A stretch of 64,000 nt of DNA, taken from the NCBI RefSeq assembly GCF_002117005.1, contig NZ_CP021023.1, forward strand, positions 186,001 through 250,000. The letters are read 5' to 3'. Below, in pieces: positions 13,845-30,532 of this stretch (positions are counted from its first letter, which is position 1; every line of letters begins with the position of its first letter). Below the pieces are notes generated by a model. That model made no database searches and was not told the origin of the DNA. It saw only the letters and a list, made by a program, of their open reading frames with translations. Source of the DNA: Sedimentisphaera salicampi (GTDB taxonomy: Bacteria; Planctomycetota; Phycisphaerae; Sedimentisphaerales; Sedimentisphaeraceae). Made by a program: the position numbers and the translations under genes.

Positions 13845-13907
13845 TTTGTTTTAAGTTTGTGTTAAATTGAGTGTTTGAAAGTACTATTATTTAAAAGAGG
13901 TGTAATT

Positions 13908-14669
13908 ATGACTAATGGAAAATTTAGACAGTTACTGACAATCGTGTTGGTCTTATCGACTGTGAGTTACGCAGCTTACTGGGATGGAGGTGCAGGCACA
14001 ACCTCCTGGAATGATGCTGCAAACTGGGACCCTGACGGTGTTCCAACCCCGGATACTGACCTTGAGTTGGGGGCGGAACCTGCGCAGGAAATCGTTGTCT
14101 CGGCCAATGCCTCCAGCAGCAGAATTGATCTGGGTTACGAAAACGACTACGATGTCAACTTCACAGTTGATGGAGCTACATTAACTACAGGATGGTTTGT
14201 AAACGCCAGCAAAAAAGTCGATGCAACTGTTAATATCACTAACGGCGGGACCCTTGATACGGCTTACAACAGGCTCTATATTTCCAATTATGGTACAGGC
14301 GTCATAAATGTTTATGACGGAACTGTGAAGAACTTAAATACGGAGTATGGAATCTTCATGTGCGGCAAACCAGCAGGAGAAGCCACAATTAATCTTTACG
14401 ATGGTGAAATAATTGCCAACGGAATAGAAACAGGCAATCAATGGACCGTTAATATTGGTTCCGGGGAGCTGAAACTAAACGGAGACCACAGGACCTTTAT
14501 GAACACCTATTCAGATAATTTCAACCCTATACAAGGTATGACTTCCATTCAGGTTGATTACGATTCCCAAGGCGACCTAACCACTGTAACTGCTGTCCCA
14601 GAACCTGCAACATTGACTTTGCTGGGGATTGGCGGTTTATCATTGTTTAGAAGAAAACGCAAAAATTGA
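13908..14669 (+). CDS. Short PEP-CTERM protein carrying the beta module (copy D)
   Basis: This 253-aa protein has the same plan as the gene at 8551: signal peptide, one beta module, PEP-CTERM tail (VPEPATLTLLGIGG, RRKRKN). An in-frame start at 13875 would add 11 residues, but ATG 13908 (MTNGKF) has the shared AAGAGGTG leader and aligns with its paralogues, so I use it. It forms a long/short pair with the giant gene that ends 63 nt upstream. The two share their N-terminal module but carry different C-terminal sorting devices (dockerin-like versus PEP-CTERM). It is the last plus-strand gene before a convergent minus-strand operon. Confidence 0.88.
   Translation: MTNGKFRQLLTIVLVLSTVSYAAYWDGGAGTTSWNDAANWDPDGVPTPDTDLELGAEPAQEIVVSANASSSRIDLGYENDYDVNFTVDGATLTTGWFVNASKKVDATVNITNGGTLDTAYNRLYISNYGTGVINVYDGTVKNLNTEYGIFMCGKPAGEATINLYDGEIIANGIETGNQWTVNIGSGELKLNGDHRTFMNTYSDNFNPIQGMTSIQVDYDSQGDLTTVTAVPEPATLTLLGIGGLSLFRRKRKN
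13974..14594 (+). repeat. Beta-module repeat, copy D
   Basis: Fifth copy of the module. It is almost the same as copy C over its first 190 codons, and the same as copy B from there into the PEP-CTERM tail. Confidence 0.88.
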
Positions 14670-14682
14670 ACTCATAACTGAG

Positions 14683-14758
14683 ATATATGCAGAGGCCGGA
14701 ATACTTAAGAATTCAAGCTGATAAATGCTGCACACTTTGAAAAAGCCTCTGCATATAT
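14683..14758. terminator. Perfect 14-bp inverted repeat between convergent genes
   Basis: ATATATGCAGAGGC (14683-14696) is exactly repeated in inverted orientation at 14745-14758, with a 48-base loop. It separates the PEP-CTERM gene (plus) from the mannosidase (minus), and its right end touches the mannosidase stop codon. It probably acts as a two-way terminator or RNA-stabilising stem. The left arm is preserved imperfectly after the gene ending at 9321, where the right arm is gone. Confidence 0.55.
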
Positions 14759-17700
14759 TATTCCAGTTTCAGTTTAATCGTCTTTATTTCCCATGGCCGG
14801 AAGCTGAGGTTTATCATTTTTGAGCTGGATTTTAGTTCGCAGATTTCTTCTTCCAGGGCATTTGTAAGCCATGCATTCTCGATTTCGAAGGCTGATTTGA
14901 GTTTGGCCTCGCTGCTTCCGCCGGCAGATTCATAAAGCCTAAGCACAACTTCGCTGCCTTCTTGAGCCTTTTTAACAGTCTCTAAAACTGCAGTTTCTGA
15001 TTCTATATCAAAGAAGCTTAAAGAATTGCTGCTTGCTGAAGGAATTGGGCAGTCCTCGTTTATGATAAGGGGCGAGTTTAGCTCGCTCGCAGCCTCAGCA
15101 ACCCCGCCCTGAATTAAATTACCTTTATGCGGCAGAAGCGAATATGTGAAGCTGTGTTTGCCCTGATCTGCCTCTTTTCCGGGGAAACTCGTACTTCTGA
15201 GCAGGTTAATGTCTATCACATTCCCAAATAAATTATAGCCGTATTTACAGTCATTTAGAATTGCAGCGCCTCTGTCCTTCTGTGATATGTCCACAAATTT
15301 ATGTGCGCATACCTCAAGCATAGCCTTATCCCAGCTTGTGTTGGTATGGGTTGGGCGTCTTAGATTGCCGAACTGTATATCGCAGGTTGCAAAATGGCTG
15401 AAAACATTCAGCGGGAATTTCGTCCTTAGCATTTTGGAGTTTTCATGCCAGTCAACCTCCGTATTGAAGTCTATTCGTTTGCTGCCGTGAGTTAGGACAA
15501 TCTTTTGGGTAAGTTTTGAATTACCGTAGGAGTATGTCTGTTCCAGAATCGCCTTTGGACCGCTGAGGCTTGCAGAGCTGCTTTCGAGCTTGAAGGATTC
15601 AGAAGGGAGCTTCTGATAGTCTTCAAGTATATCCCATGCATCGCCGTTGTCGGTGTAAACATCAAGGGTGTTGCCTTTGCTGCCTTCATGTATTGTTTCA
15701 AATCCTGCCTGCTTGTCATAAGCGGATATAAGGCGGCCATCTTCTGAAAATTCAAGCCTGATAAGTTCGTTTTCAAGGAGCTTTCTTTCGGCTTTCAGAG
15801 GAAAACTTTCTTCAATAATCTCTGATTTTTTAAAGCATCTAAAGCCCATCGGTTCCACTTCGGCTTTCAGCCAACCGTATTTTGTTTGAACCCACTCGCT
15901 TCTTTTCCATGATAGGGTGTTGAATACTGCTATATCATTGCTGCTCGCGTCAAATCTGCCGTTTTTATTCTCTGAGAGTGATTTTAATGCATCTCTGGTA
16001 AGCTGCTGCACTTCCTGAAGCAGCAGTTCATATCTTTCGAGACACTCATCGTAAACCCGCTTCATTGAAGACCCTGGCAGTATGTCGTGGAATTGATAGA
16101 GAAGGACTTCTTTCCAAATCTCATCAAGCCTTTCTTGCGGGTAATCCCACCCATTCTGCATAGCGACGGTTGCCAGGAATTCGAGGTCCCGCAGACGCAG
16201 TTCCAGCATCCTGTTGTATTTTTTGGTTTCAGCCTGCGAGGTGTATGTGCCTCGGTGTTTTTCAAGATAGAGTTCTCCGTGCCATTGAGGGTAGTTTGCG
16301 CTGTCTTGGTTAAGATGTTCGAAAAAGTCCGAGCTGAATTCCTGCTTTACAGGGGGAAGTCCGCTAAGGTTTTTGAGCCTTTTGAGCTTCTCGAGATGTT
16401 CTGCGCCAGGCCCTCCGCCTCCGTCTCCAATTCCAAAAAGCATCAGGCATCTATCGCTTACAGCTTTCTGGGCGTAATTCTTTTCTGACTTAGCTATAGA
16501 CTGCGGGCCTGCATTGCTGTTGTATGTTTCTTCCGGAAGCATATGGCTCAATACTGCTGTTCCGTCCAGGCCTTTCCAGTAAAAGGTGTGATGGGGGAAT
16601 TTGTTGGTGTCATTCCACGAGAGTTTCTGAGTCATGAAGTAATCAACTCCGCAAGTCTTCATTATTTGTGGAAGAGATGCTGAATATCCGAATACATCAG
16701 GAAGCCAGAGATTCCTTACGTCAAGCCCAAATTCTTCTCTATAGAATGTTTTACCGTAAACAAATTGTCTTATGAGGGATTCACCTGAAGGCAGGTTGGT
16801 GTCTGATTCAACCCACATTCCACCCTGAAGCTCCCATCTTCCCTCAGCGACTTTTTCTTTTATCTTGCTGTAGAGGTTAGGGTATTCATCTTTAACCCAT
16901 TGATATAGCTGGGGCTGACTGGCTCCAAAAATGTATTCAGGGTAGCGTCCCATTAAATCCAGTACGGTTGAAAATGTCCTTGCAGCCTTCCTGAAGGTTT
17001 CTCTTATCGGCCAGAGCCAGGCTAGATCCATGTGGGCATGGCCTACAGCGCTGACTTTCAGGCATGGGTCTAAGCTTTTTCTGCTCAGCTCCTTACTTAG
17101 CAGGTCTCTCGCCCGCTTTACTTCATCCTCATCGAAGTTATGAAGTATCACCATCGCCTCATAAAGAGCTCTTGAAGCCCTTGCATATCTTGCACTGTCT
17201 TTATCCAACACCTGCATAAGCTCTCTGATTGTCCAGTAGTCGTAGTAGAGATCTCTTATGTCATCCCTGCATACGGCTATATCTGCCTGTTCTATTCTGC
17301 CGTCTTTGCATAGTGTTCCGAAAAGGTCGTTGCAGCCTGCATCAATCCATATATCTATTTTGCCGGTTTGCTTTGCATCATTCGAGAGCTGAAGTACCCT
17401 TTTTCCGGGTTGTCCCAGCGAAAAGCAGAATGAAGAGCTGCCGTTGGTTAATCCTCTCTGAGGATTCCCGTGATTATCAAATACGCAGGCCTCTCCGTTG
17501 AAGTCTATCAGGAGAACGGTATGTTTATCTTTGCAGTCCTCTGGCACATCTCCTGTAATGTGAAACCAGCAGCAGTCGAAAACATCGCCCCATTTATCTC
17601 CCGGCTTAAAGGTTTTCTTTTCACCTTCGGTTTTCCTGTCAAAGGGAAGAGGTTCTTTAGTTGTGTAACCCTCAATATTGAGGGGTGTCTTTGGGGTATA

Positions 17701-17769
17701 AATTTTTTCTTTTATATCGTCTGCAAATTGGATCATCATTTCAATCTGCTTCTCGGAAAATCTAAACAT
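14758..17769 (-). CDS. GH38 alpha-mannosidase
   Basis: This 1003-aa glycoside hydrolase of family 38 removes alpha-mannosyl residues. Residues 1-235 form the N-terminal extension. GHAHMDLAWLWP at 243-254 supplies zinc ligands His246 and Asp248, and LWLPDVFGYS contains the probable nucleophile Asp358. The C-terminal half is the usual beta-sandwich region. There is no signal peptide, so it is probably cytoplasmic and acts on imported mannosides. The start follows AAGGAT. It is the last gene of a minus-strand run containing an FAD oxidoreductase, a symporter and URO-D-like proteins. A palindrome-bearing hairpin lies just upstream. Which manno-oligosaccharide it uses cannot be read from sequence. 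Confidence 0.93.
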   Translation of the reverse strand: MFRFSEKQIEMMIQFADDIKEKIYTPKTPLNIEGYTTKEPLPFDRKTEGEKKTFKPGDKWGDVFDCCWFHITGDVPEDCKDKHTVLLIDFNGEACVFDNHGNPQRGLTNGSSSFCFSLGQPGKRVLQLSNDAKQTGKIDIWIDAGCNDLFGTLCKDGRIEQADIAVCRDDIRDLYYDYWTIRELMQVLDKDSARYARASRALYEAMVILHNFDEDEVKRARDLLSKELSRKSLDPCLKVSAVGHAHMDLAWLWPIRETFRKAARTFSTVLDLMGRYPEYIFGASQPQLYQWVKDEYPNLYSKIKEKVAEGRWELQGGMWVESDTNLPSGESLIRQFVYGKTFYREEFGLDVRNLWLPDVFGYSASLPQIMKTCGVDYFMTQKLSWNDTNKFPHHTFYWKGLDGTAVLSHMLPEETYNSNAGPQSIAKSEKNYAQKAVSDRCLMLFGIGDGGGGPGAEHLEKLKRLKNLSGLPPVKQEFSSDFFEHLNQDSANYPQWHGELYLEKHRGTYTSQAETKKYNRMLELRLRDLEFLATVAMQNGWDYPQERLDEIWKEVLLYQFHDILPGSSMKRVYDECLERYELLLQEVQQLTRDALKSLSENKNGRFDASSNDIAVFNTLSWKRSEWVQTKYGWLKAEVEPMGFRCFKKSEIIEESFPLKAERKLLENELIRLEFSEDGRLISAYDKQAGFETIHEGSKGNTLDVYTDNGDAWDILEDYQKLPSESFKLESSSASLSGPKAILEQTYSYGNSKLTQKIVLTHGSKRIDFNTEVDWHENSKMLRTKFPLNVFSHFATCDIQFGNLRRPTHTNTSWDKAMLEVCAHKFVDISQKDRGAAILNDCKYGYNLFGNVIDINLLRSTSFPGKEADQGKHSFTYSLLPHKGNLIQGGVAEAASELNSPLIINEDCPIPSASSNSLSFFDIESETAVLETVKKAQEGSEVVLRLYESAGGSSEAKLKSAFEIENAWLTNALEEEICELKSSSKMINLSFRPWEIKTIKLKLE

Positions 17770-17947: not shown

Positions 17948-19354
17948 TCAAGATTTCAGGTCTCTGAGCATACCCTGTTTCTTGAGTTTTTTCTGCATTT
18001 TTGTTACGGAAATATCTCTCAGCCCAGTCCCTTTACCAGCTGCCATAGCTGCGGCAAGTCCGGCTGCCTGTCCGGTTTGCGAAACTATAGGCTGAACCCT
18101 GTAGGCCGTCATTGCTATATGTGTGCCGCTGATTATTTTTCCGGCTGTTAAGAGACCCTCAAATCCGCTTGGGATAAGAGATCGGTAAGGAATACCGAAA
18201 GGGGGGATATGCTTGTCTTCTTTAGTCCAGCTCTCACCCCAGCCGTCAAGATAGTATTGACCGATAGCTACAGTGTCATCTGCATATTTGCCTTTCCTCA
18301 TGTAGCCTTCGGTAATTACAAAATCGCCTTTGATTCTTCTGTTTTCCCTTACTCCTACTTTAGGCGCAAAATTTACCGTGAAACCGCTTTCAAAGAGCTT
18401 TCTTACCGTTGGTTTCAATCTTTGCTGCAAGAGCCTCTGGGTATTTGACACTTCTATAGGGTTTCTCGTATCCTTGCAAATTTCAGTGGCTCCCCAGTGA
18501 ATATAAATCCCGGTCTTTCTATTGTAAAAGCTATCTTTCACATTTTTGAACCAACCGTAGCCGTAATCGATGCATCCTGCATTTAGCTCTTCATAAACCT
18601 TGAAGTCAGATTTTTCAGTTCCGAACTTCTGACTTATAAACATCTGCGTACAGGGCATAACCCTCTCATCAGCTTTTTCTTTCCCGTGAGTTTCATTGAA
18701 TTGTGCTTTTGAATCTCTTCCGTACATTGACTCGCAGCCGGCCATTTCACATACTGCGCCGTTGCCCGTGGCATCTATTGTAACTTTTGCTTTTACTGCA
18801 ATCGAATGCCCAGCGGCTCCGGAAGCGATCACTCCCTCAAATCTGTCTCTGTTTCCTTTTGGGCTTATCAGAGGCTCAACAGCTCTTGCCCCGCAGATAA
18901 CCTGAATATTCTTTTCTGCTGATATCATATCATCCAAAATCATACTGTAAGAGGATGGGACATACCAGAAGTCAGACAATTTATCCTTATTATTGGATTG
19001 AGGCCTCAAAAGCGAATGGTCATTTTTCAGTTTATCGACCATTTCCTTGAAAATACCCACCATCGGATTTCCGCAAAGATACCCAACGTACATATCTGTT
19101 GGCGCGCCGCCTATTTGCTGATCCTCTTCAAGCAGCACAACCCTTGCCCCTTCGCGTGCAGCAGAGATTGCAGCGGGTATGCCTGAGGCGCCCGCACCCA
19201 ATACCAGTACGTCGGTTTCAACGGCATCAATATCTAATTTACGGCCTGCATTAAGCTTATCATTATTGCCGTACATGGTTGAAGTTAAGAAAGCTGGCGT
19301 AAGCAGCGAGCTCTTTATAAAATTCCTTCTGTTGAAACTATTTATAGCTGACAT
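17948..19354 (-). CDS. TAT-exported FAD-dependent oxidoreductase
   Basis: This 468-aa protein begins with a twin-arginine signal (NRRNFIK at 8-14, hydrophobic stretch to about 28). The FAD-binding motif is intact (VLVLGAGASGIPAA near 50-63), followed by a glutamate-rich second strand end (VVLLEE). IDATGNGAV, IPYRSLIP and QTGQAAGLAAAMA place it in the FAD_oxidored group (PF12831-like), the same family as the active half of the giant proteins at 3614 and 9615. Its reaction is unknown. It was chosen to start at ATG 19354, which follows GAGGT. Same-strand neighbours are a symporter (66 nt upstream) and a mannosidase downstream. Confidence 0.9.
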   Translation of the reverse strand: MSAINSFNRRNFIKSSLLTPAFLTSTMYGNNDKLNAGRKLDIDAVETDVLVLGAGASGIPAAISAAREGARVVLLEEDQQIGGAPTDMYVGYLCGNPMVGIFKEMVDKLKNDHSLLRPQSNNKDKLSDFWYVPSSYSMILDDMISAEKNIQVICGARAVEPLISPKGNRDRFEGVIASGAAGHSIAVKAKVTIDATGNGAVCEMAGCESMYGRDSKAQFNETHGKEKADERVMPCTQMFISQKFGTEKSDFKVYEELNAGCIDYGYGWFKNVKDSFYNRKTGIYIHWGATEICKDTRNPIEVSNTQRLLQQRLKPTVRKLFESGFTVNFAPKVGVRENRRIKGDFVITEGYMRKGKYADDTVAIGQYYLDGWGESWTKEDKHIPPFGIPYRSLIPSGFEGLLTAGKIISGTHIAMTAYRVQPIVSQTGQAAGLAAAMAAGKGTGLRDISVTKMQKKLKKQGMLRDLKS

Positions 19355-19420: not shown

Positions 19421-21409
19421 TTATTCGGCATTTTCATCAAATTTATAGCTTTCTACAGGCCCATCTGCCGGAGGAAGTTTGCTGTACCAGAAGAAGTACA
19501 TACCAACCATACAGAAGACCGAAATGCCGAGAGTTATAAAGAACGCATTAAACGAATGAATAACCAGCTGCATAGGCATAAGGAATAAGGTTACCTGCCA
19601 TCCCATTACAAAAGGCACAGCTATAATGTCATTCTTGTGCTCGGATTCCATAAGTTTTTTCTCTCGAGGGCTTAAAGTGTCTTTCAGAGGCTTCCAGAGC
19701 CCGAAAGGTCTAGTCCTCATATAGAATTTTTTGAGAGTGTTCCAGTCGGTAGGCTTGAAGCAGTAAGTCGCCGCTATGGTGCACAGAAGCGTTGCAGCAA
19801 AAACTATCAAAAGCTGTATTCTCGGGTCGAGTCCGGGGGCTATTGCTCTTTGGAGTATTGCAATAGTCATACCGGAGAACATGCCGATTGCAAAACCTTC
19901 GCCGTTAAAACGCCACCAATAAAGCCTCAAAAAGCATGGAGCCACAAGGCCAGCATTGAGACCCATAACGAGCCATTCCCATATATCCGTAACGCCTTTG
20001 AGGGTGTAAGCGAGGAGGAAACCTGCTATTACTAATATGAATGTAAACAAGTAGCTTGCAGTAATAAGCTCCCTGTTTTTTGCTTTAGGGCGAAGGTATC
20101 TTTTGTATAAATCATTTACAAAATATCCACCCGCTTTATTTATTGAAGAGTCCAGCGTGGACATTGCAGCGGCAATCAATGCTATGAAGATTATGCCCCT
20201 CACCCCTGATGGGATGCTCTTCATCAAAACTGCCGGCATTATAGTTTCCGGATTAACCCCGCCTTCAAAGCTAACCATTAAGGTCTTGCTCTTCCAGCCT
20301 TCATTGAATAAGTCTTTCAAACCATTTATAAGCTCAGGCGAATATTCGGAAGGCGCCTGTACTATATGAGCCAGCGTATCATACCATTTGTGCGCTGGAA
20401 TCTCACCGAGATGTGCCCTTATCAATTCTGCGGCCTGAGGTATTGCGTTAGTATCGGGGAATGAATCCCGAACAAGATATATTCCAAACACTGCAAATGC
20501 CATTATCAGAGGCCATCTCAGGCTCATGATAACCGTCCAGAATGCAGACATAAGCCCGCAGTCTCTGTCGCTTTTTGCCCCGAAATACATTGGCTCAGCG
20601 CCCGAAACGCTCATTCCGAGAAGTATGTTCAAAAACAGATATGAGAGAGCGAAAGAAAGCAGGTTTGAATACTGCTCATAACCCGGAAGGAATTTTGTCT
20701 TTATTTCCGGCGCGCTGCTTGCCCACTCCTGATTCCCTGTAACCTGTGCTGCTGTATCTGAAAATGAAGTAAGATCAGGTATTTCAAAGCCGGCGAGAAA
20801 CGCCACTGAAATTGCGCCTATGAAAATGAAAAGACCCTGAACAATATCACTGTAAACCACGCCGTAAAAGCCGGATATTGCTGTGTAAACTGTTGCCATA
20901 CCAACGAAAATCAGGCAGCATTGGAAAGGTGTAAACGGGAGGAAAAGAGACAGGAATATGCCAAGCCCCTTTATAGTCATACCGAGAAGCCCTATTGTAA
21001 GCAGTATTATAGCTACAACTTGAGCGATTCGTGAAAGATGCGCACCAAAACTCTTGCCAAATCGGAACATCATCCATTCAGCCAGCGTCATGCAGCCTGA
21101 TCGCCGGTGCCATTTTCCCGTCCAAAGCAGCATGAAAACCATAACAAGCCCTGCCCCTCCACGGAAGGCTATATATAATCCCTTTGGGCCGATCATATAT
21201 ATGAATGCTACTATTATCATTGTGCCAACAATGTTTACCCACATTGCCATTCCCGAAAAGCCCAGAGCCCACCAAGGCAGTTTCCTTCCGCCAAGATAGT
21301 AGTCATCAAGGCTTTCTGCTGCTTTTTTGCGCATGTAGAGACCGATGCACAGCAAAAATACAAAATACAAACCAATGATCGTGTAGTCCAGCCAGCTTAA
21401 ATAATGCAT
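19421..21409 (-). CDS. Sodium/solute symporter (SSS family)
   Basis: This 662-aa integral membrane protein starts with a helix typical of SSS transporters (LDYTIIGLYFVFLLCIGLYM) and DDYYLGGRKLPWWALG at about 36-51. Roughly fourteen hydrophobic segments are visible, and STLDSSINKAGG marks the conserved sodium-site region of helix 8. It should import a small solute, often a sugar or carboxylate, with sodium. The length is somewhat above the 500-600 typical, because of loops and a C-terminal extension. It lies 29 nt downstream of a URO-D-like gene and upstream of the FAD oxidoreductase, so it probably imports the substrate handled by that cluster. Confidence 0.93.
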   Translation of the reverse strand: MHYLSWLDYTIIGLYFVFLLCIGLYMRKKAAESLDDYYLGGRKLPWWALGFSGMAMWVNIVGTMIIVAFIYMIGPKGLYIAFRGGAGLVMVFMLLWTGKWHRRSGCMTLAEWMMFRFGKSFGAHLSRIAQVVAIILLTIGLLGMTIKGLGIFLSLFLPFTPFQCCLIFVGMATVYTAISGFYGVVYSDIVQGLFIFIGAISVAFLAGFEIPDLTSFSDTAAQVTGNQEWASSAPEIKTKFLPGYEQYSNLLSFALSYLFLNILLGMSVSGAEPMYFGAKSDRDCGLMSAFWTVIMSLRWPLIMAFAVFGIYLVRDSFPDTNAIPQAAELIRAHLGEIPAHKWYDTLAHIVQAPSEYSPELINGLKDLFNEGWKSKTLMVSFEGGVNPETIMPAVLMKSIPSGVRGIIFIALIAAAMSTLDSSINKAGGYFVNDLYKRYLRPKAKNRELITASYLFTFILVIAGFLLAYTLKGVTDIWEWLVMGLNAGLVAPCFLRLYWWRFNGEGFAIGMFSGMTIAILQRAIAPGLDPRIQLLIVFAATLLCTIAATYCFKPTDWNTLKKFYMRTRPFGLWKPLKDTLSPREKKLMESEHKNDIIAVPFVMGWQVTLFLMPMQLVIHSFNAFFITLGISVFCMVGMYFFWYSKLPPADGPVESYKFDENAE

Positions 21410-21438: not shown

Positions 21439-22557
21439 TTAAAAATTAACTGTTTCGAATTGACTGTTATAACTGTTTACTATATCCGTTATTAGGTTTA
21501 TCCGCTCAATGTCTCCAGTTGAAGAAATCTCGTCGGAAATACCTAAAATAAGTTTAGGTGCAAAAAGTTCGATTATTCTTTCTGTGCAATCTGTAAGAGT
21601 TTTTTCAGAGTAGGTCTCATCGAAAAACACAGCAGGAATTCCATCTATCAAATACATATCGTCGCCGAGAGCCTCTTTTATTTCTTCCAGGGTTACATCG
21701 CCCTGCGGGGTTGGAGTTATAGCCTCAATTCCGTCAAGGCCGGTCTGTCTTGCGTATTTCAGTAGTGGTCGGCAGTTCCCGTCCCAGTGAGAATAAACAA
21801 ATTTGCCTGCCGAATGAAGCTTATCGCACCTTCGCCGGCAGGCCGGCAGGTGATATTTTTCGAATAAATATGGTGGTAGGCTGTCGCTGTGTATGTTTTC
21901 ACCGAAATTAACCAGATTAACAGGTGAATCGTTTATCAATTCTATAAGTCTGCTGTGACTTTCTTCAAGGGCATTGAAATACCTGTCCACAGTTTCAGGC
22001 CAATCCTGCATCGCAAAAATGCCGTTCTCTATGCCCATTTTTTCAAGATAAAGGCTTTGGATATTCATTCGGGGCATTATAACCGCAGGAGCTCCCAAGT
22101 CGCCAATCTCTTCTATAAGTTTATTATATTTCTCCCCGTTCCATTTCCATGAGCAATTTTCTTCCCGCCAAGCTGCTGTTTCAAGTTCTTTCTCAGTTTC
22201 AACTTCTCGCTTCAGATGCTTAGGCCACTGAGAGGTTTTGCTTTTTTGAAGTATTTCTGTCTGGCAGCCGGCAGGTGTTTCAATTGTATGGGTGATTTTT
22301 CCGTCCGGGTTCTCTTGGAAGGTTTGCTGTACCCTGTAATCTTCCTGTCTTTCAAAACATTCCCCGAATTCGTAAAGCCGTGCAGAACAGCCGAGCTTTC
22401 TGTAGATATCGTAGATGCTCAGCCCGGCATACTTTTCAGGAAGAGGTTCGCCGCTGAATATCTTATCATGGTACCAGCATATTATTCGCGGCTGCCAGAG
22501 GATTTTCCCATCTGATCTGCCAAAAACTGCATCGCTGTTCAATTTTGCAAAATTCAC
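21439..22557 (-). CDS. URO-D-superfamily protein 1 (divergent)
   Basis: This 372-aa member of the uroporphyrinogen decarboxylase/methyltransferase superfamily is the most divergent of four in a row. It starts with GTG at 22557, 11 bases after the stop of the next gene; no better ATG exists. Conserved elements are the central SHWDGN motif near a barrel strand and the downstream DGIEAITPTPQGD and LIDGIP strands. It lacks the MRQAGRY substrate motif of true HemE. It also lacks the His-x-Cys zinc motif of corrinoid methyltransferases such as MtaA, having His-Trp-Asp-Gly instead. The reaction is unknown. It is directly upstream of the symporter. Confidence 0.8.
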   Translation of the reverse strand: MNFAKLNSDAVFGRSDGKILWQPRIICWYHDKIFSGEPLPEKYAGLSIYDIYRKLGCSARLYEFGECFERQEDYRVQQTFQENPDGKITHTIETPAGCQTEILQKSKTSQWPKHLKREVETEKELETAAWREENCSWKWNGEKYNKLIEEIGDLGAPAVIMPRMNIQSLYLEKMGIENGIFAMQDWPETVDRYFNALEESHSRLIELINDSPVNLVNFGENIHSDSLPPYLFEKYHLPACRRRCDKLHSAGKFVYSHWDGNCRPLLKYARQTGLDGIEAITPTPQGDVTLEEIKEALGDDMYLIDGIPAVFFDETYSEKTLTDCTERIIELFAPKLILGISDEISSTGDIERINLITDIVNSYNSQFETVNF

Positions 22558-22568
22558 CTAATGCTCTT

Positions 22569-23573
22569 TTATAGAATGTTATTAAAGGCCTCAAAGGCAG
22601 TATAAATGTTTTCCGGCTTTGCACCCGGCCCGAATTGAACCTGTGCAATTACTCCTCCGTTTTTGTAGAGTTTGCCGCAGATATCTTCAACTGCGTTTCT
22701 TATCTGCTCGCTGCTTCCTTCCGGCAGAAGATTCTGGCGGTCTATCTCGCCCCAGAATGTTATCCGCCCGCGGAATTTTTCGCTGAGTTTGTCTAATCCG
22801 ATACAAAATATTTGACTGCTCAAGGCATCCAGCCCAATTTCTATCAAATCTTCCATTATATCGTATATGTAGCCGTTGGAATGCATAAAGATTTTCTTGC
22901 CCTTTGAGCGGGCTATATCGACATATTCCTTGTACATCGGCTTGAAAAGCCTTCGCCAATGATCCGGCGAAATAAGCAGCGAATTCTGCATTCCCCAGTC
23001 GTCCATAAACATAAGCCCATCAACATCAGTTTCAGCCCAAGTTTCAAGGAGCTTGAGGTTATACTGATGGATCGTGCCGATAAGCGTTTCAAGCTCGGTG
23101 GGCTGCATTGCCAAATCAAGCATTACGTTTTCTGTCCCGCGAAGAAACTGAAGCCTCTCAAAAGGCCTCGGAGCAGCGCCTGCAAGGATGAATTTCTCAG
23201 ATTCGCTGCAGAAGCGGTTTACTTTTTCTTTGTCCACAGTGAGCATTTCAGAAGGTGGGCTGACTTTTGAAAGTTCATCCCAGTTTTGTATCAATGGCGA
23301 TTTAACCTCGCCCATAATTCCTTCGTGTTTATTGTAGAACTCACAGCCCCATTCGTCTTTGTATGTCCCTGAAATATAGGGGTCTCCAAAGGTTTGCGGG
23401 CTTGTTTTAAGAAAATTAGGCGAAGAAATTATGTCATCCGGAAAAGTCGTTTTGATTTTCGAAACCTGCTCCGGATAATTAATCTCAGCCCAGCGAAGAA
23501 GCCAGAGCTGTCGCGGAATTCTTTCAGGATTATCGAACTCAAGTGTTTTTGTTACCAGTTTGCGTGAAGTCAT
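22569..23573 (-). CDS. URO-D-superfamily protein 2
   Basis: This 334-aa barrel protein of the URO-D/methyltransferase superfamily opens SRKLVTKTLEFDNPERIPRQ, where family members have an arginine loop, but with no MRQAGRY. KIFMHSNGY at the centre gives an H-x-N-G motif. GGVIAQVQFGPGAKPENIY forms the last strands. It is strikingly similar to the next gene upstream (23647), sharing long identical stretches such as ERLQFLRGTENVMLDLAM, so the pair is a tandem duplication. It is not expected to make haem: no other haem genes are near, and four copies would be redundant. The true substrate is unknown; the context suggests sugar-derived compounds. Confidence 0.85.
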   Translation of the reverse strand: MTSRKLVTKTLEFDNPERIPRQLWLLRWAEINYPEQVSKIKTTFPDDIISSPNFLKTSPQTFGDPYISGTYKDEWGCEFYNKHEGIMGEVKSPLIQNWDELSKVSPPSEMLTVDKEKVNRFCSESEKFILAGAAPRPFERLQFLRGTENVMLDLAMQPTELETLIGTIHQYNLKLLETWAETDVDGLMFMDDWGMQNSLLISPDHWRRLFKPMYKEYVDIARSKGKKIFMHSNGYIYDIMEDLIEIGLDALSSQIFCIGLDKLSEKFRGRITFWGEIDRQNLLPEGSSEQIRNAVEDICGKLYKNGGVIAQVQFGPGAKPENIYTAFEAFNNIL

Positions 23574-23646
23574 TAGATTCCCTTTTGCTTAAATTTATAA
23601 TTATTATCTAATGACAAACATAACTTCATTTGCCAAATTCGCAAGT

Positions 23647-24660
23647 CTATAAATTAGCTGAAATATTGTTCCAGGTTTCATAAGCGGTATAAACATTCTC
23701 AGGTTTTGCGCCGGGGCCGAATTCCAGCTGGGCTATTGTTCCTCCGTTCTGGTATAATTTATCAAATATTTCTCTGACGGCGTTCTGGATATCATCTTGG
23801 CTTCCCTCCGGCAGAAGCCTCTGGCGATCTACTTCACCCCAGAATGTTAATCTGCCTTTGCAAATCCTGCTTACTTCATCAAGTCCCATGCAGAATATCT
23901 GGCTGTTTATAGCATCAAGACCCAGTTCAATCAGGTCTTCATAAATATCCAGAATATATCCGTCGGAGTGCATAAAAATTTTCTTGCCGCTTGAGTGGGC
24001 TATATCTATATATTCCTGATACATGGGTTTGAAAATTTCGCGCCACTGATTAGGTGAAATCAGCAGCGATCTCTGGGCTCCCCAGTCATCCATAAAGGTA
24101 AGCGCATCGACATCAGTTCCCGCCCACACTTCAAGCAGTTTGAGGTTGTATTGATGGATTGTATCTATAAGTGTTTTTAGCTCAGGCGGCTTCATCGCTA
24201 GATCAAGCATTACATTTTCTGTCCCGCGGAGAAACTGAAGTCTCTCAAAAGGCCTTGGACACGCCCCAGCAAGGATGAATTTTTCCGATTCTCTGCAGAA
24301 GCTGTTTACCTTATCCTTATCAACACTAAGCATTTCTGAAGGGGGACGAACATTGGAGAGATCATCCCAGCTTTCCACAATAGGCGATTTTACCTCGCCG
24401 ATAATCCCCTCATGCTTATTTACAAATTCGCAGCCCCATTCATCAAAGAAAGTACCCAGCTTGAACGGATCACCCTCAGTTTTAGGCTGCGTTTTAAGGC
24501 AGTTTGGAGGCGGGACAATATCGTCTGGGAAATCTGCTTTAATTTTGGAAACTTCTTTCGGATAATGATTCTCAGCCCAAGGCAGAAGCCAGAGTTGCCT
24601 CGGTATTCTTGCAGGGTTGTCAAACTCTAACGTTCGTATTACTAATTCTCTGGGAGTCAT
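23647..24660 (-). CDS. URO-D-superfamily protein 3
   Basis: This 337-aa near twin of the gene at 22569 opens TPRELVIRTLEFDNPARIPR, has a central KIFMHSDGY (H-x-D-G), and ends with GGTIAQLEFGPGAKPENVY. The asparagine of its twin is an aspartate here, so the two may differ in activity. The ATG at 24660 overlaps the end of the upstream gene by 41 bases, a sign of translational coupling. A 73-base spacer separates it from its twin. Annotation as HemE should be avoided for lack of the MRQAGRY motif. Confidence 0.85.
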   Translation of the reverse strand: MTPRELVIRTLEFDNPARIPRQLWLLPWAENHYPKEVSKIKADFPDDIVPPPNCLKTQPKTEGDPFKLGTFFDEWGCEFVNKHEGIIGEVKSPIVESWDDLSNVRPPSEMLSVDKDKVNSFCRESEKFILAGACPRPFERLQFLRGTENVMLDLAMKPPELKTLIDTIHQYNLKLLEVWAGTDVDALTFMDDWGAQRSLLISPNQWREIFKPMYQEYIDIAHSSGKKIFMHSDGYILDIYEDLIELGLDAINSQIFCMGLDEVSRICKGRLTFWGEVDRQRLLPEGSQDDIQNAVREIFDKLYQNGGTIAQLEFGPGAKPENVYTAYETWNNISANL

Positions 24661-25759
24661 AGCTGTCCTCGCATTGATTATCGTATTTAACTATTTCATA
24701 TGTGCTTTCAATGAAAGCATCCACATTTTCAGGTTTAGCACCTGCTGATATTGCCCCGCCGGTGCATAAAACAAATTTCTGGTTCTGGTTTGCAGTTTCA
24801 AAGCAGTATCTGGCAGCATTTTTTACGTCTTCAGGAGTCCCCTCAATCATAACGTTGATCGGATGAATATTCCCTGCAAGTATCACATCGGGAAGAGCCT
24901 CTCTGAAGTCTTTTATATCGATATTCGGAGAGAAGCCCATCAGCTCATCGATATTAAGCTTATTGAGCTGGGAAATCCCTGAGGGTATAATGTCTCCGTC
25001 GGTATGAAGGCTGCAGAGAGCTTTGCCTTTGTATCTGTTGAAGATTTCGCCTGTGTAAGGACGGACAAATTCATCAAAGAGCTCTGGTGGCAGGTATGCG
25101 CAGTAGTCCTCGCCGATGTCCACTTTGTCGTAGAGGTTATTGTTTGCTGGCATATTGCCCCATCTTGATTCGGTAAATTCAATCCATTCAAGCGTTCGCT
25201 GGAAAAGAAAGTCGAATATTTTTTTTACCTTTGCGGGGTGGTCGTAGAGGTCTATGAAAAACTTTTCAGTACCTCTGAATATTGAGTATAGATCCATTGC
25301 CCCTGTAGAACCAAGGTAGTGATAAACTTTTTTGTCGTCAGGCAGCCGGCTGTTGAAATATTCAATTGCTTTTGTTATTTCCTTTGCCGCCTTGGTTTCA
25401 GCGATTGGTGTAGTGCAGAAATAGCGGTCGAAATTGTCTAAGTCTTTCTCAAGTACCCTGTCAGGCACGGATTCAGGGTGGTCTTCGTTAAACTTTTCGA
25501 GATCAAAGAATATATCGGCATTTCCAATGTCTATTGAGAAATCCCTGAGGCCGTAAAAGCGGTCGTTGACAATTTTTTGAGCTTCGAACATTACTTCAAT
25601 ATCACTGCTGTAGTCTTTGGGGTTTACATTTGCATATTCGCATACAAAAGTGCAGTCCAGCCACAAGCGAAAAGGTGCATATTCCACCCGCTCACCCCTT
25701 ATAAGCTTTCGATACCTTTCTACGTTGCCTTCAAGAAAACCGTCTGGTACTTGAGCCAT
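24620..25759 (-). CDS. URO-D-superfamily protein 4 (operon head)
   Basis: This protein has 379 aa when started at ATG 25759 (MAQVPDGF), which follows GAGGT seven bases upstream. A longer frame to 25837 would begin with an unlikely hydrophobic leader that overlaps the promoter region. The fold signature is like its neighbours, and the central motif is SLHTDGDIIP (H-x-D-G). LAGNIHPINVMIEGTPEDVK is typical of the methyltransferase-like branch of URO-D. It is the first gene of the minus-strand operon that continues through three paralogues, a symporter, an oxidoreductase and a mannosidase. A TTGACA box about 85 bases upstream could drive it. Substrate unknown. Confidence 0.85.
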   Translation of the reverse strand: MAQVPDGFLEGNVERYRKLIRGERVEYAPFRLWLDCTFVCEYANVNPKDYSSDIEVMFEAQKIVNDRFYGLRDFSIDIGNADIFFDLEKFNEDHPESVPDRVLEKDLDNFDRYFCTTPIAETKAAKEITKAIEYFNSRLPDDKKVYHYLGSTGAMDLYSIFRGTEKFFIDLYDHPAKVKKIFDFLFQRTLEWIEFTESRWGNMPANNNLYDKVDIGEDYCAYLPPELFDEFVRPYTGEIFNRYKGKALCSLHTDGDIIPSGISQLNKLNIDELMGFSPNIDIKDFREALPDVILAGNIHPINVMIEGTPEDVKNAARYCFETANQNQKFVLCTGGAISAGAKPENVDAFIESTYEIVKYDNQCEDSYDSQRISNTNVRV

Positions 25760-25820
25760 TTGATACCTCAACAAATTCAAATAAAAAAATGTTAACACGA
25801 AGCAACTTTTGCATATGGTA

Positions 25821-25848
25821 AAACTAACAAATAGCAAATATTTGTCAA
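25821..25848 (-). promoter_or_regulatory. Predicted sigma-70-type promoter for the URO-D/symporter operon
   Basis: On the minus strand, a perfect TTGACA (25848-25843) is followed after 16 bases by TAGTTT (25826-25821). A transcript would start near 25814, giving a leader of about 55 bases before ATG 25759. It lies back to back with a plus-strand promoter. Confidence 0.45.
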
Positions 25849-25884: not shown

Positions 25885-26021
25885 CTCTTTCATAAACTGT
25901 ATCTGATAGCTAAAACTTTTTTATTACTGTTTTGTTCAAGATTTAGTGATCTCGCTTAAAGCAGTGTTACAAAAGCTTTGTTGACTTCTGTATATTGTTA
26001 ACCGAATTTAAGGGCTTTTTT

Positions 26022-27854
26022 ATGAATTTCTCAAGGGACAATCAGGTTATTGCAGTCTTATTTGTGTGTGTGTTTTCATTTTCAGCGAACGCCATAGCCA
26101 ATTCACCCAGATGGTTTCCCTCTCAAGAACCACCGGAGTTTGTCTTGAAGACAAATTATATGGGAGATTTGGGAAGTGAGCTGCCTGATAAGATGGAAAA
26201 CAAAAAGCATTTTGGAAATTTAATGCACATACTTGCTCAGTCTGTTTCTGGATTGGCTGCCAAAGGTGTTAATCAGGGCAAAACTGATGAAATGATATGG
26301 ATACAGAAAAGAAGCAGCGATTATCAAAAGTGGTTCAAGATGACAAAGGAAAGGCTTGGTTTTGAGGATAAAGGTGTTCATTCTTTGACCAGCCTGATTA
26401 AGCGTTTCAAAAAACAAGGCCTGATTGAAGGATATATAGTTTATTCATACGATGATTCAAAGGGCGGCGCATATACTGAAAGGGAGGATATAGACTCTTC
26501 TCTGAATGTTGCAACAACTCTTGCAGGCATCAGAAATGCTATTTTGCTTGAGGAGAATGTTGAGGTTATAGGCAGAAGGCTTGGATTGAAAAGGCTTTTT
26601 GATGCCCGCGGCAAAACTATGGATTGGTGTTATGATAATGTTCTTGGCGAGCTCAACAGAAATGCTCTTCTTACTGTTGACCCGAAAGTTGGCTACAACA
26701 GGGCTGTTGCTATAGCTAACCGTTGCGCTTGTGTTTACGGGATAAACGATATAACAGCCAAATTCAGCGAATGGCTTAATCCTCCCTCGCCAGTATTCGG
26801 CTGGAACTGCGGGGGAGAAGCCGAACAGACAGGACTTGTAACAGAATACGGGCATTTCCAAACCGCTACAAACTGGGCATTAAACCTTCCGCTGCTTTCG
26901 GCGGATTCGGAAAATGCAGAACTCAGGAGAATAAAGGCAGTCGAACCTTCCGATATAAATTACAACGACAATCGCCGTCCTGCTGCGTTTATTATGAGCG
27001 ACGGGGATAATCTGCAGTGGATTACCGGAAAATTCTGTATGGACAGGAGATACTGGGCTAATCCCTATCACGGAGGTTTTCCTATGGGCTGGACAATCTG
27101 CCCGGGACATTTATCACAGCTTTGCCCTGCCGCCTTCAATTATCTTTCAGACACCCAGCCGAAGAATTCCGGTTTGATGGAATATGGAGGCGGTTATTAC
27201 TATCCTGACCTTTTTGCAAAAAAAAGAGAGAACCGCTTAAAGTATCTCGAGATGCACGCAGAAAGGATTTCTCATTATCTGAATCGAACAGGAATAAAGG
27301 TCTTTAGTTTTATCTGTAAAGATGTTGACAGTCCTGAAGCACTGGAGGCATATTCACTGTATGCCAAAAAGCTCAAAGGCATATACGGAATGATTGCAGT
27401 GCAGTATTATCCATACAACGGGGGCGACGGCGAAATTTTCTGGTATAAAAATTCAGAAGGAACTGAGATTCCTGTGATTACTGCCACCCATTCAATATGG
27501 AATAATGCCCGCTGGGAAGGCGGCGGAACGCCTGCCAAAATAGCAAGGCTGATAAATGAAGATTCAACAGATACCGGCTTCAGCATTGTGAGTTCTCATG
27601 CATGGTCTAAATTCAATAAGATTCCAGATAACGATCAAGAGGCAGAGAACGTTCCAAAAGAAGCCTCAAAAAAACAGCTTAAAAATGCTGAAAGCGGACT
27701 TACCCCAGTTAAGTGGTGTGTTGACAGGCTCAATCATAAAGATGTGCATGTAGTAACGCCTGAAGAGCTTATCTGGAGAGTAAGGATGGAAAAAAGACCT
27801 GAACAAACAGAAGAAGTTATCAATAGATTACAGAAAAAATATTCCGAAAGGTAA
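26022..27854 (+). CDS. Secreted GxGYxYP-family protein (putative glycoside hydrolase)
   Basis: This 610-aa protein has a signal peptide (hydrophobic stretch IAVLFVCVFSFSANA, cleavage near residue 25-28). The hallmark GGGYYYPDLF is present, preceded by FIMSDGDNLQW, both features of the GxGYxYP family (PF14323), which is called a putative glycoside hydrolase without, to my knowledge, a firmly established reaction. A TTG at 25995 would lengthen it by nine residues. I prefer ATG 26022, eight bases after AAGGG, because the signal peptide begins there. It is five bases upstream of the PHP-like gene, so the two are surely co-transcribed. Substrate unknown. Confidence 0.85.
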   Translation: MNFSRDNQVIAVLFVCVFSFSANAIANSPRWFPSQEPPEFVLKTNYMGDLGSELPDKMENKKHFGNLMHILAQSVSGLAAKGVNQGKTDEMIWIQKRSSDYQKWFKMTKERLGFEDKGVHSLTSLIKRFKKQGLIEGYIVYSYDDSKGGAYTEREDIDSSLNVATTLAGIRNAILLEENVEVIGRRLGLKRLFDARGKTMDWCYDNVLGELNRNALLTVDPKVGYNRAVAIANRCACVYGINDITAKFSEWLNPPSPVFGWNCGGEAEQTGLVTEYGHFQTATNWALNLPLLSADSENAELRRIKAVEPSDINYNDNRRPAAFIMSDGDNLQWITGKFCMDRRYWANPYHGGFPMGWTICPGHLSQLCPAAFNYLSDTQPKNSGLMEYGGGYYYPDLFAKKRENRLKYLEMHAERISHYLNRTGIKVFSFICKDVDSPEALEAYSLYAKKLKGIYGMIAVQYYPYNGGDGEIFWYKNSEGTEIPVITATHSIWNNARWEGGGTPAKIARLINEDSTDTGFSIVSSHAWSKFNKIPDNDQEAENVPKEASKKQLKNAESGLTPVKWCVDRLNHKDVHVVTPEELIWRVRMEKRPEQTEEVINRLQKKYSER

Positions 27855-27859
27855 TTTTT

Positions 27860-30532
27860 ATGAAAAGACGCGATTTCCTAAAGCTTGTAGGTGTCAGCGG
27901 AGCAGCAAGCTTGCCAAGCGTTTTAACTGCTGAGCCCCAAATCCCTTCGCCCGGGAAATGGAGTTTGTCGCCAAACAAGCTTACAGCTGCAGAAACAGCA
28001 GATTTAGAGCTAAGATACGAAAACGGAAGTTATGCCCTCCCCGCAGGCTCTTACCATAGGGTTTTAATCGAGCCGGTTAGTGTAAAGACCTTTTTCCATT
28101 GTCCCCCAAGTACTGATTTGAAGGTTGCCCAATATAAAACGTCTTTGCCCAATATAAAACTCGAGCCGAAGAGAGTAAACGGTGTAGGATTTAGAGAAGT
28201 CAAAATCGTTTTCCCTGAAGGCCTTAATGCAGGTGGAAGCTTTGCACTGAAGATTGGTAATAAACAGCCAGACGGAAGCGTTAAGGCATTGATAAACCCT
28301 ACCCAAGTTCAAAATCTCACCTTCGAGACATACACCTGTTTAGCTGGCAGGGCAAACAAAAATCCATGGAAAAGCTCTGAGGGTAAAGAAATGGACTGGG
28401 CAAAAATGGGCTGGATAAGCTCTCTTCCCCATTTTGACATAAACGGCGGCAGAGCTTCAAAACTCAGGCTGTTTGCGCCTTCATTAATTCAGGTTGATAA
28501 ACCCTTCAGTCTAAAAATTTCAGTTATAGATGATTTTGATAATAAGGCCTGTCCAAGTTATCAGAATGATGTGGTACTTGAAGAGCTTGAGAATCTTTCT
28601 GCTCTTCCTGATAGAGTGAAATTCAGATATTCAGATGATTGCAGCAAAACTATTGAAGGGCTCAAAGTCCGGAAACCAGGCATATACAGAGTTAAGGCAA
28701 GCCTTTCAGGAAGTTCAAAATATTTCGAGAGCAATCCGATTGTTGTTCGTGAGAAGGTAGAAAATCCAATCTACTGGGGGAATATACACAACCACTGCCA
28801 GTATTCTGAATGCTGGGGGACCGATCTGGATACATTTTATTCCTTCGCTCGCGATATTTCCGGAATGGACTTTGTAGCACTCAGCGACCATAGGGGACAA
28901 AAGCCGGTAAAGGGCAGGTATGTAAGCAGGCTGCTTAGATGGCGAACGGGCAATGCAGACAGCCTAAAGGCATGGAAAGATACAATCTATAAGGCGGAAA
29001 AATACAACAACCCAGGAAAGTTTGTAACCCTTTTCGGCTATGAATGGACATCCATGGACAGCGGCCACTATAACATATACGTTCCCGAAGCAAAGCTTGA
29101 GGATATGGATAAGTATTTCACCAAGCGATACACAGACTATGGTTTCAATATCCGTGAGATGCTAAAAGACACTGAAGCCCTCTTCATACCGCACGGCCAT
29201 GCAGACAGGCTTCCGTTCTATAATCTTGTGCATACAAAAAACGCAGCGGGTAAAGAGCTTACGCCTGCGGTAGAGGTGTACTCAGACTGGGGCGGAATGT
29301 ATTTCCCCTATAAGCAATTTGATAAAGACTCGCAATTCGGAGCTGCAAGGAATTCTGACACAGAAAGCTATCTCTGGGTAATTGACAAAGGTTATAAGCT
29401 TGCTGCTATAGGAGATTCAGACTCACATACAGGCCTGCCCGGTAGAAGGACAGTAGGAAGCTGCGCTCCAAATCACGACCACCCCCAGGGGCTTACTGCC
29501 GCAATCACCTCAGATTATACCCGCAGGGGAATTATGAACGCCTATCACAACAGGCATGTTTACGGTACAACCGGTGAGAGGATATTCCTTGAAGTGAGGG
29601 CTGAGGATGCCTTTATGGGCGATGAGCTTCGCACAGATGAATCTTTTGATATTAATGTACAGGTTTCAGGAACAGATCTGATAGACAAAATCTATCTTTA
29701 CAGAGGCCTTGAAAAGATTGGCGAAAAATCACCGCAAAATCAGAGAGACGTAAGCTGTGTTTTTGAAAATCTTCAGCCTTCTGAGGATGAAAGGCCTTAC
29801 GCTGTCGCCGTAATCCAGAAGGACGGCAGCAGGGTATTCGGTACTCCTGTATGGGTACGAAAAAAGTCTGTACCCGAATTGACTGTCGTTAAAAACGGCG
29901 ATACTGCTCTTCTCTGCAATGAAGGAAACTGCGATGCTGAGAAGATAAACATCATGTATTCAGGTTTTGAGCATCCCTTTGCGCTGCCTGCCTTGGAAGG
30001 GTACGAGTGCGGCATGAAAGAATCTGCTGCTATGATCTGGACACAGCGATGGAACGATTTCAAGACTATGTTCCATTACCGCTGGCACGGAGAGCCGATT
30101 GAAGGCCGTATCCGAATAATTGGGGCTGAAGATTATAACGTCGATTTCAACAGAGACTTCATTTTCCGGAAAAATAGATACAGCGACGACGGCAAAGGCA
30201 ATATCACTTTCGAAACCGGCAAAATGGTAATACCTTCCCATTCTCAGGGCTTCGATATTATGATAAAAAGCCGTACAGACCGCAAATGTCAGGCCGTGAT
30301 AGAGCTGAACCGAAAAGTCAGAACTTACATGGGTCCAAAGAAAATTGTCTCTAAAGAAGTTGTTGTACCTCTCAACGGAATTACGCAAAATAGATTTAAT
30401 TCATATGAGATTTCAAAAATCAGCAGCGATGAGAAGATACCCATAGACAACAAAAAAGGTTTCTACGCAGTTGATCCTTCAATGAGAATAACTGAAGTGA
30501 ATGAATCAAACAACCTTTATTATTTGCAGTAA
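27860..30532 (+). CDS. TAT-exported PHP/DUF3604-like metal-dependent protein
   Basis: This 890-aa protein opens with a twin-arginine signal (MKRRDFLK). Residues about 30-300 are beta-rich. A PHP-type metallohydrolase region then begins with WGNIHNHCQYSECWGTD (about 308-324), continues with DFVALSDH, and later FIPHGHADR and IGDSDSHTG. These His/Asp clusters are the usual metal ligands of PHP domains and match the DUF3604 pattern. The last ~250 residues look like beta-sandwich accessory domains. The activity is probably hydrolytic and metal dependent, outside the cytoplasm, but the substrate is unknown. Partner: the GxGYxYP protein directly upstream. Confidence 0.83.
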   Translation: MKRRDFLKLVGVSGAASLPSVLTAEPQIPSPGKWSLSPNKLTAAETADLELRYENGSYALPAGSYHRVLIEPVSVKTFFHCPPSTDLKVAQYKTSLPNIKLEPKRVNGVGFREVKIVFPEGLNAGGSFALKIGNKQPDGSVKALINPTQVQNLTFETYTCLAGRANKNPWKSSEGKEMDWAKMGWISSLPHFDINGGRASKLRLFAPSLIQVDKPFSLKISVIDDFDNKACPSYQNDVVLEELENLSALPDRVKFRYSDDCSKTIEGLKVRKPGIYRVKASLSGSSKYFESNPIVVREKVENPIYWGNIHNHCQYSECWGTDLDTFYSFARDISGMDFVALSDHRGQKPVKGRYVSRLLRWRTGNADSLKAWKDTIYKAEKYNNPGKFVTLFGYEWTSMDSGHYNIYVPEAKLEDMDKYFTKRYTDYGFNIREMLKDTEALFIPHGHADRLPFYNLVHTKNAAGKELTPAVEVYSDWGGMYFPYKQFDKDSQFGAARNSDTESYLWVIDKGYKLAAIGDSDSHTGLPGRRTVGSCAPNHDHPQGLTAAITSDYTRRGIMNAYHNRHVYGTTGERIFLEVRAEDAFMGDELRTDESFDINVQVSGTDLIDKIYLYRGLEKIGEKSPQNQRDVSCVFENLQPSEDERPYAVAVIQKDGSRVFGTPVWVRKKSVPELTVVKNGDTALLCNEGNCDAEKINIMYSGFEHPFALPALEGYECGMKESAAMIWTQRWNDFKTMFHYRWHGEPIEGRIRIIGAEDYNVDFNRDFIFRKNRYSDDGKGNITFETGKMVIPSHSQGFDIMIKSRTDRKCQAVIELNRKVRTYMGPKKIVSKEVVVPLNGITQNRFNSYEISKISSDEKIPIDNKKGFYAVDPSMRITEVNESNNLYYLQ

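Follow-up and report, generated by a model that had tools for sequence, protein, structure and literature searches.

Four UroD-superfamily proteins with carboxylate-type central motifs in a carbohydrate gene cluster of Sedimentisphaera salicampi: candidate corrinoid-dependent O-demethylases

Introduction

Four proteins resembling uroporphyrinogen decarboxylase (URO-D), here called U1 to U4, are encoded in one run beside a sodium:solute symporter of the SSS family in Sedimentisphaera salicampi. The stretch that was analysed (the window) comprises 64,000 nucleotides, C1:186001-250000 of a single-contig genome of 3.19 Mb. We propose, with a probability of about one half, that the quartet are corrinoid-dependent O-demethylases of sugar-linked methyl groups and draw on corrinoid proteins whose genes lie outside the cluster, elsewhere in the genome. 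The proposal is built on the fold of U1 and U3, the central motif and its repeated origin, the fusion or adjacency of relatives of U3 and U1 to corrinoid genes, and an enrichment of glycoside hydrolase family 38 (GH38) genes. The quartet spans 25762 down to 21439 on the minus strand; coordinates and strands in the lists of this text are positions within the window.

24620..25762, minus strand: U4, URO-D protein, motif LHTDG, Gly at the second-Cys column, first gene of the run (PF01208, 78.8 bits)
23647..24660, minus strand: U3, URO-D protein, motif FMHSDG, Glu313 (PF01208)
22569..23573, minus strand: U2, URO-D protein, motif MHSNG, Asn233 and Gln313, 73% paralogue of U3 (PF01208)
21439..22557, minus strand: U1, URO-D protein, motif SHWDG, Asp342 at the second-Cys column (PF01208)

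The open frame of U4 begins with TTG at 25837; the likely ATG start is at 25762.

Results

Family and fold

All four proteins were assigned to the UroD superfamily by PF01208 (30.3, 62.6, 65.6 and 78.8 bits against a Pfam cut-off of 23.9), and none of them passed an NCBIfam cut-off. They had been described as four paralogues; the shared superfamily stands, but only U2 and U3 are close (73% identity), and U1 and U4 are only 16–18% identical to U3, giving three lineages. RQAGRY, which we take to be the HemE motif and which was also named in the original prediction, is absent from U1, U2, U3 and U4. Identity with HemE was rejected on this motif and on score (29.3 bits for U4 against a cut-off of 302.95, with U1–U3 unlisted). 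An S-type identity with MtaA, MtbA or CmuA was rejected on a best NCBIfam score of 50 bits against a cut-off of 244, and the corresponding zinc site, His-x-Cys...Cys, was ruled out by H-x-D/N in all four members. The host genome holds 17 URO-D proteins (the quartet and 13 others), none with RQAGRY, and from these sequences the family seems to be diverted from heme synthesis in this organism.

The AlphaFold model of U3 (predicted local distance difference test score, pLDDT, 94.9) has the UroD fold. Its top solved chain is MtaA 4ay7 (Z 25.8, root-mean-square deviation (rmsd) 3.5, 298 residues aligned), with which human UROD 1r3y ties (Z 25.4, rmsd 3.4, 301 aligned). The U1 model (pLDDT 93.9) also has a UroD-superfamily fold and matched MtaA with Z 21.9 and rmsd 3.7 over 295 residues. 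MtaA, HemE and MetE were among the matches listed by the structure searches; CdmB was not among them, which is no argument against CdmB. Single-sequence searches for solved relatives returned none for U1, and their matches for U3 and U4 were weak or due to chance; a U3 profile search found none; profiles of mixed members matched MtaA, HemE and CdmB among solved structures. Function is not decided by fold alone.

The central motif and the predicted metal site

The central motifs of U1 to U4 (SHWDG, MHSNG, MHSDG and LHTDG) share one alignment column with the H-x-C of MtaA 4ay7 and of ten of the 13 other URO-D proteins in the genome, where it takes the forms HSCG, HTCG, HNCG, HICG, HCCG and HICS. 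The remaining three carry FVCG, HSDG (locus L025) and HNDA (L023); H-x-[D/N]-G is not unique to the quartet. Asp or Asn occupies the column in 4/4 quartet members and 2/13 of the others (Fisher P 0.006, or P 0.018 when the quartet is counted as three lineages). Since the background rate of H-x-[D/N]-G is 0.084 per 350 residues (948 non-URO-D proteins of the examined loci), its occurrence in all four at one column is not due to chance. The original prediction thus held in placing this motif at the equivalent central position of four URO-D-like proteins beside a symporter, in which both the HemE motif and the His-x-Cys zinc motif of MtaA/CmuA are absent.

The second Cys of MtaA 4ay7 aligns with a Cys of the genome's own URO-D protein at L022. 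This column holds Asp342 in U1, Gly in U4 and a gap in U3 and U2, beside Glu313 and Gln313, respectively. A preprint (PMC10418091) describes the zinc of UroD-superfamily S-methyltransferases as bound by a His-Cys-Cys site; O-methyltransferases of the superfamily have, in place of one Cys or both, a carboxylate or a residue that does not coordinate the metal. Carboxylates take both Cys places in U1 and, if a shift of one column is allowed, in U3; in U4 a carboxylate takes one, and U2 carries amides at both ligand places. O-demethylation is proposed because these H-x-D...D/E sites match the O-methyltransferase rule of PMC10418091. The rule is not strict, since CdmB, a methyltransferase component of the same superfamily, works without zinc (PMC13222342).

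The protein with FVCG, which has no His at this place, is encoded at L021:6700-8070 (C1:2178699-2180069); it has a C-terminal thioredoxin-like stretch and scores 45 bits for NF047660 against a cut-off of 105. Relatives of it also occur near U3 relatives in L125 and L140.

Conservation and repeated origin of the motif

The U3 relatives considered are the best 80 of 137 candidate loci encoding a relative in a scan of the genome collection. They come from Clostridia, Chloroflexi, Spirochaetes, Planctomycetota, Verrucomicrobia and other groups; at E 1e-40, relatives were found in 14 of 294 genomes of the window's phylum, its own genome included. In an alignment of 82 rows (U3, U2 and the 80 relatives) His231 is kept in 82/82, Asp233 in 80/82 and Glu313 in 78/82. 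Asp233 is replaced by Asn in U2 and its ortholog, which also have Gln at 313; the other deviations at 313 are a Ser in L173 and the row of L178, which ends early. U1 relatives were found in 11 other genomes of the 294 at E 1e-25, and His257, Asp259, Gly260 and Asp342 are kept in all 15 aligned rows of the U1 clade.

A tree of 97 rows was built by a quick method and carried long-branch warnings. U3 and U2 fall in a clade with Asp throughout, U1 in a separate clade of 17 Asp rows, and U4 with its single relative in a group of 13, ten of them with Cys. Parsimony gave eight changes between Asp and Cys, of which at least five are forced by starred branches, and a single origin of H-x-D was rejected on this tree, in which some branches are long. 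As far as this tree goes, H-x-D arose repeatedly.

U2, a paralogue without the ligand carboxylates

U2 lacks both predicted ligand carboxylates (Asn233 and Gln313) in two species. Its ortholog in a same-genus genome, G004 (L168:9290-10294), is 90% identical, with dN (nonsynonymous divergence) 0.052 and dS (synonymous divergence) 0.583, so that dN/dS is near 0.09. The ratio is low and resembles that of the neighbouring PurN (dN 0.091, dS 0.742), which shows that purifying selection acts on U2. The flanking genes for EF-G, S1 and PurN, identified by eye, are still present in G004, where U2 adjoins a transposase. The identity of the two U2 proteins (90%) exceeds that of U2 and U3 (73%), and U3 has therefore probably been lost in G004. 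The paired change to Asn and Gln suggests, from the sequences, that the two carboxylates act together.

Association with corrinoid proteins

Outside the window the host genome encodes two corrinoid proteins, one intact RACo (the corrinoid activase) and two homocysteine methyltransferases; there is no RACo within the window. The corrinoid proteins are encoded around C1:63300 and C1:2322726. Relatives of U3 are fused to corrinoid domains in two genomes of one genus (G023 and G195), where B12-binding_2, B12-binding and URO-D stand in one protein according to Pfam; a KDPG (2-keto-3-deoxy-6-phosphogluconate) aldolase/sugar kinase gene precedes the fusion gene and an SSS gene follows it. In L138 a corrinoid gene lies 24 bases after U3, with RACo beyond it. 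U3 is preceded in L164 by genes for a corrinoid protein and a homocysteine methyltransferase, and in L167 by a corrinoid fragment. Altogether a corrinoid gene was found in the available flanks of 6/80 U3 loci; the density of 0.57 per Mb counted in 37 genomes would predict 0.64. Around one U1 relative (L198) the order is aldehyde dehydrogenase, U1, corrinoid protein, activation-like protein, homocysteine S-methyltransferase and GH38; the activation-like protein matches MetH-activation only weakly, with 22 bits against a cut-off of 25.

A corrinoid-free branch of the superfamily is not supported, because relatives of U3 are fused or adjacent to corrinoid genes and one U1 relative is adjacent to them. 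From the original prediction of a new catabolic branch the linkage to catabolic genes is retained, but the corrinoid-free part fails for the U3 and U1 lineages, with no such evidence for U4. A corrinoid partner elsewhere in the same regulon, which would have told against such a branch, is found as far as the two corrinoid proteins and RACo go; a shared regulon was not shown. Judged by their relatives, the proteins are likely to be corrinoid-associated UroD-superfamily methyltransferases with carboxylate-type sites in carbohydrate clusters.

Sugar genes and the symporter

The run comprises seven genes on the minus strand (U4, U3, U2, U1, SSS symporter, FAD oxidoreductase and GH38 glycosidase) with successive gaps of -41, 73, 11, 29, 66 and 178 bases; the GH38 gene is probably the last. 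The features beside the quartet are as follows.

19421..21409, minus strand: SSS-family sodium:solute symporter, 29 bases downstream of U1 (PF00474, 97.5 bits)
17948..19354, minus strand: FAD-dependent oxidoreductase with a twin-arginine-like start, the N-terminus having been read directly (PF12831, 270.9 bits)
14758..17769, minus strand: GH38 alpha-mannosidase-type glycosidase (PF01074, 322.8 bits)
25995..27854, plus strand: GxGYxYP putative glycoside hydrolase, divergent, upstream of the run (PF14323)
27860..30532, plus strand: DUF3604 / CehA-McbA-like metallohydrolase, divergent, upstream of the run (below the NCBIfam cut-off)

The protein at 13875-14669 ends, by eye from its translation, in a PEP-CTERM-like sorting signal.

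The neighbours of U3 relatives include sugar kinases, KDPG aldolase, LacI, sugar ABC permeases and several glycoside hydrolase families. Among 91 same-strand neighbours (25 of 108 Pfam families listed) the commonest families are PfkB, GH2, GH38 and ABC permeases, with three each. GH38 lies near 11/80 U3 loci against 1.6 expected, for which P 1e-6 is an overstatement, since sugar genes cluster by nature. It also recurs near U1 and U4 relatives, the U4 relative in G001 being flanked by two GH38 genes. A locus of the cultured Robinsoniella peoriensis (L166) holds GH38, U3, a second H-x-D URO-D, sugar-type ABC-transporter genes and a third H-x-D URO-D together, and thereby parallels the window with another type of transporter. 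URO-D genes repeatedly have a putative GxGYxYP glycosidase beside them: in L030, in L103 and, at 25995-27854, in the window.

Within the host genome an SSS gene lies within 5 kb of 4/13 URO-D clusters (random mean 0.65, P 0.0036); a second own locus (L025:5405-11512) combines an SSS protein 48% identical to that of the window with two divergent URO-Ds (HSDG and HICS). Across the 80 U3 loci two SSS queries gave one weak match only (L126), and conserved linkage to SSS was not found among these loci; the suggested linkage thus stands for the organism's own clusters and the two fusions, but not for the U3 relatives at large.

Discussion

Proposed mechanism

U1, U3 and U4 would each serve a corrinoid-dependent demethylation system as its substrate-specific methyltransferase component (MTI). 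The neighbouring symporter would import a methylated compound which each of them binds, probably an O-methylated sugar or glycoside piece that GH38 and other glycosidases help to free. The ether oxygen would be activated by a metal bound to His-x-Asp and a second carboxylate (Asp342 in U1, Glu313 in U3). The methyl group would pass to Co(I) of a corrinoid protein whose gene lies elsewhere in the genome and from there to homocysteine or another acceptor, with RACo re-reducing the corrinoid. U2, having lost both carboxylates, may be a partner that works without metal, or a copy put to a new use. Metal binding, the direction of transfer, the O-methyl sugar substrate and the membership of U4 are what we infer here.

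Several observations weigh against this mechanism. Glu313 of U3 lies one column off the second Cys in the alignment, not on it, and motif and chemistry need not be coupled, given the zinc-free CdmB. The solved chain nearest to the U1 model is UROD 1j93, of HemE type (Z 23.4, rmsd 3.6, 309 aligned). As originally noted, no corrinoid protein is encoded nearby, no B12-binding domain being matched anywhere in the window, and 74/80 U3 loci have no corrinoid gene in the available flanks (many contigs are short). B12-binding_2 is present in 53/56 searched genomes with U3 or U1 relatives, a rate that may be ordinary for such genomes, as there was no control set lacking U3. The URO-Ds found beside U3 have H-x-C as often as H-x-D (19 to 17), and the substrate evidence for the quartet consists of neighbour genes only. 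For U4, one relative (68%) was found among the 294 genomes, no corrinoid link was found and the second carboxylate is also absent.

Alternative explanations

The methyl donor could instead be a non-sugar compound (a methoxyaromatic aglycone, betaine, sulfonium or halomethane), the glycosidases serving only to free an aglycone. SSS symporters carry many solutes, and that of the window lies below every NCBIfam cut-off. The known UroD-superfamily MTIs fit such a donor, MtvB, OdmB, VdmB and MtoB using methoxyaromatics and CdmB haloalkanes (PMC13222342). We nevertheless regard it as unlikely in view of the sugar genes around U3 relatives, in which no aromatic-catabolism family appears among the 25 listed of 108 Pfam families.

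On another reading the proteins have no part in methyl transfer and act on sugar acids as a metal-dependent lyase, epimerase or hydrolase with the UroD fold, the corrinoid fusions and neighbours being a side branch. The scarcity of corrinoid genes in the flanks of most U3 loci and the general sugar-metabolism neighbours agree with it, and the His, Asp and Glu set could hold a divalent metal. Fusion in two genomes and adjacency in several loci, for the separate lineages U3 and U1, and the excess of corrinoid genes at U3 loci make it improbable.

The full quartet was found in no other genome examined, and a conserved quartet was rejected: G004 keeps U2 alone, another genome of the family has relatives of U4 and U3 at separate places, and U1 relatives occur without U4. 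A second H-x-D URO-D lies near U3 in 14/80 loci, with three H-x-D URO-Ds in L143, and this pairing fits the joint or sequential action originally suggested. It is therefore very unlikely that the quartet forms a single heteromeric complex, or a strict pathway of four steps, dedicated to the window's symporter, although the tight run and the pairing would suit either.

A further H-x-D family (HTDG with SDYC) lies less than 1 kb from U3 in L098, L125, L134 and L143 and farther away in L114, L119, L152, L153 and L166; it may be the usual partner of U3.

Comparison with known systems

By description, the MTIs OdmB, VdmB, MtvB, MtoB and CdmB resemble the quartet in the UroD fold (CdmB), in a separate corrinoid protein and activase as in the quartet's relatives, and, for CdmB, in not strictly needing zinc (PMC13222342). 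They differ from it in that the quartet has a sugar-gene context and the H-x-D...D/E pattern; the Cdm system passes methyl to tetrahydrofolate (PMC13222342), whereas relatives in L164 and L198 adjoin homocysteine methyltransferase genes. The methylcobamide:coenzyme M methyltransferases MtaA and MtbA share the fold and the position of the His, but in the quartet H-x-C and the second Cys are replaced and scores fall far below the NCBIfam cut-offs. HemE uroporphyrinogen decarboxylase has the same fold, with the RQAGRY that the quartet lacks. Type 1 mlp gene clusters (PMC10418091) likewise hold several UroD-superfamily genes each, with a corrinoid protein and activase as near some quartet relatives; their sites remain His-Cys-Cys and their link is to sulfur or selenium, whereas the window has H-x-D/N and sugar genes. 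Identity with such a cluster, in which Mlp2 and Mlp3 go together with a corrinoid protein and an activase, was rejected, the window having neither corrinoid protein nor RACo and the metal sites being different.

P450 demethylation of 6-O-methyl-D-galactose also yields a free sugar from an O-methyl sugar, as proposed for the quartet; it is oxidative and gives formaldehyde, whereas the proposed route would need no oxygen (PMC10033563). A literature search, with most subscription journals outside it, found no description of anaerobic sugar demethylation or of URO-D proteins with glycosidases.

Implications

Methylated sugars are found in the glycans of algae, plants and bacteria. Porphyran is one such glycan, and the sugar demethylation route found in the literature is the oxidative P450 reaction (PMC10033563). 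A wider reading, which we put forward only tentatively and consider doubtful in its full extent, is that anaerobes of many phyla, gut Clostridia included, might remove O-methyl groups from sugars independently of oxygen by UroD proteins with carboxylate ligands and corrinoid proteins, passing the methyl to homocysteine, with the enzymes in sets and U2 as a metal-free partner kept by selection. If the proteins are corrinoid sugar O-demethylases, a family spread across many anaerobic groups and gut Clostridia would gain a testable function, the repeated swap of H-x-C to H-x-D would become a sequence marker for substrate class, and there would be an oxygen-free way to remove methyl groups from sugars.

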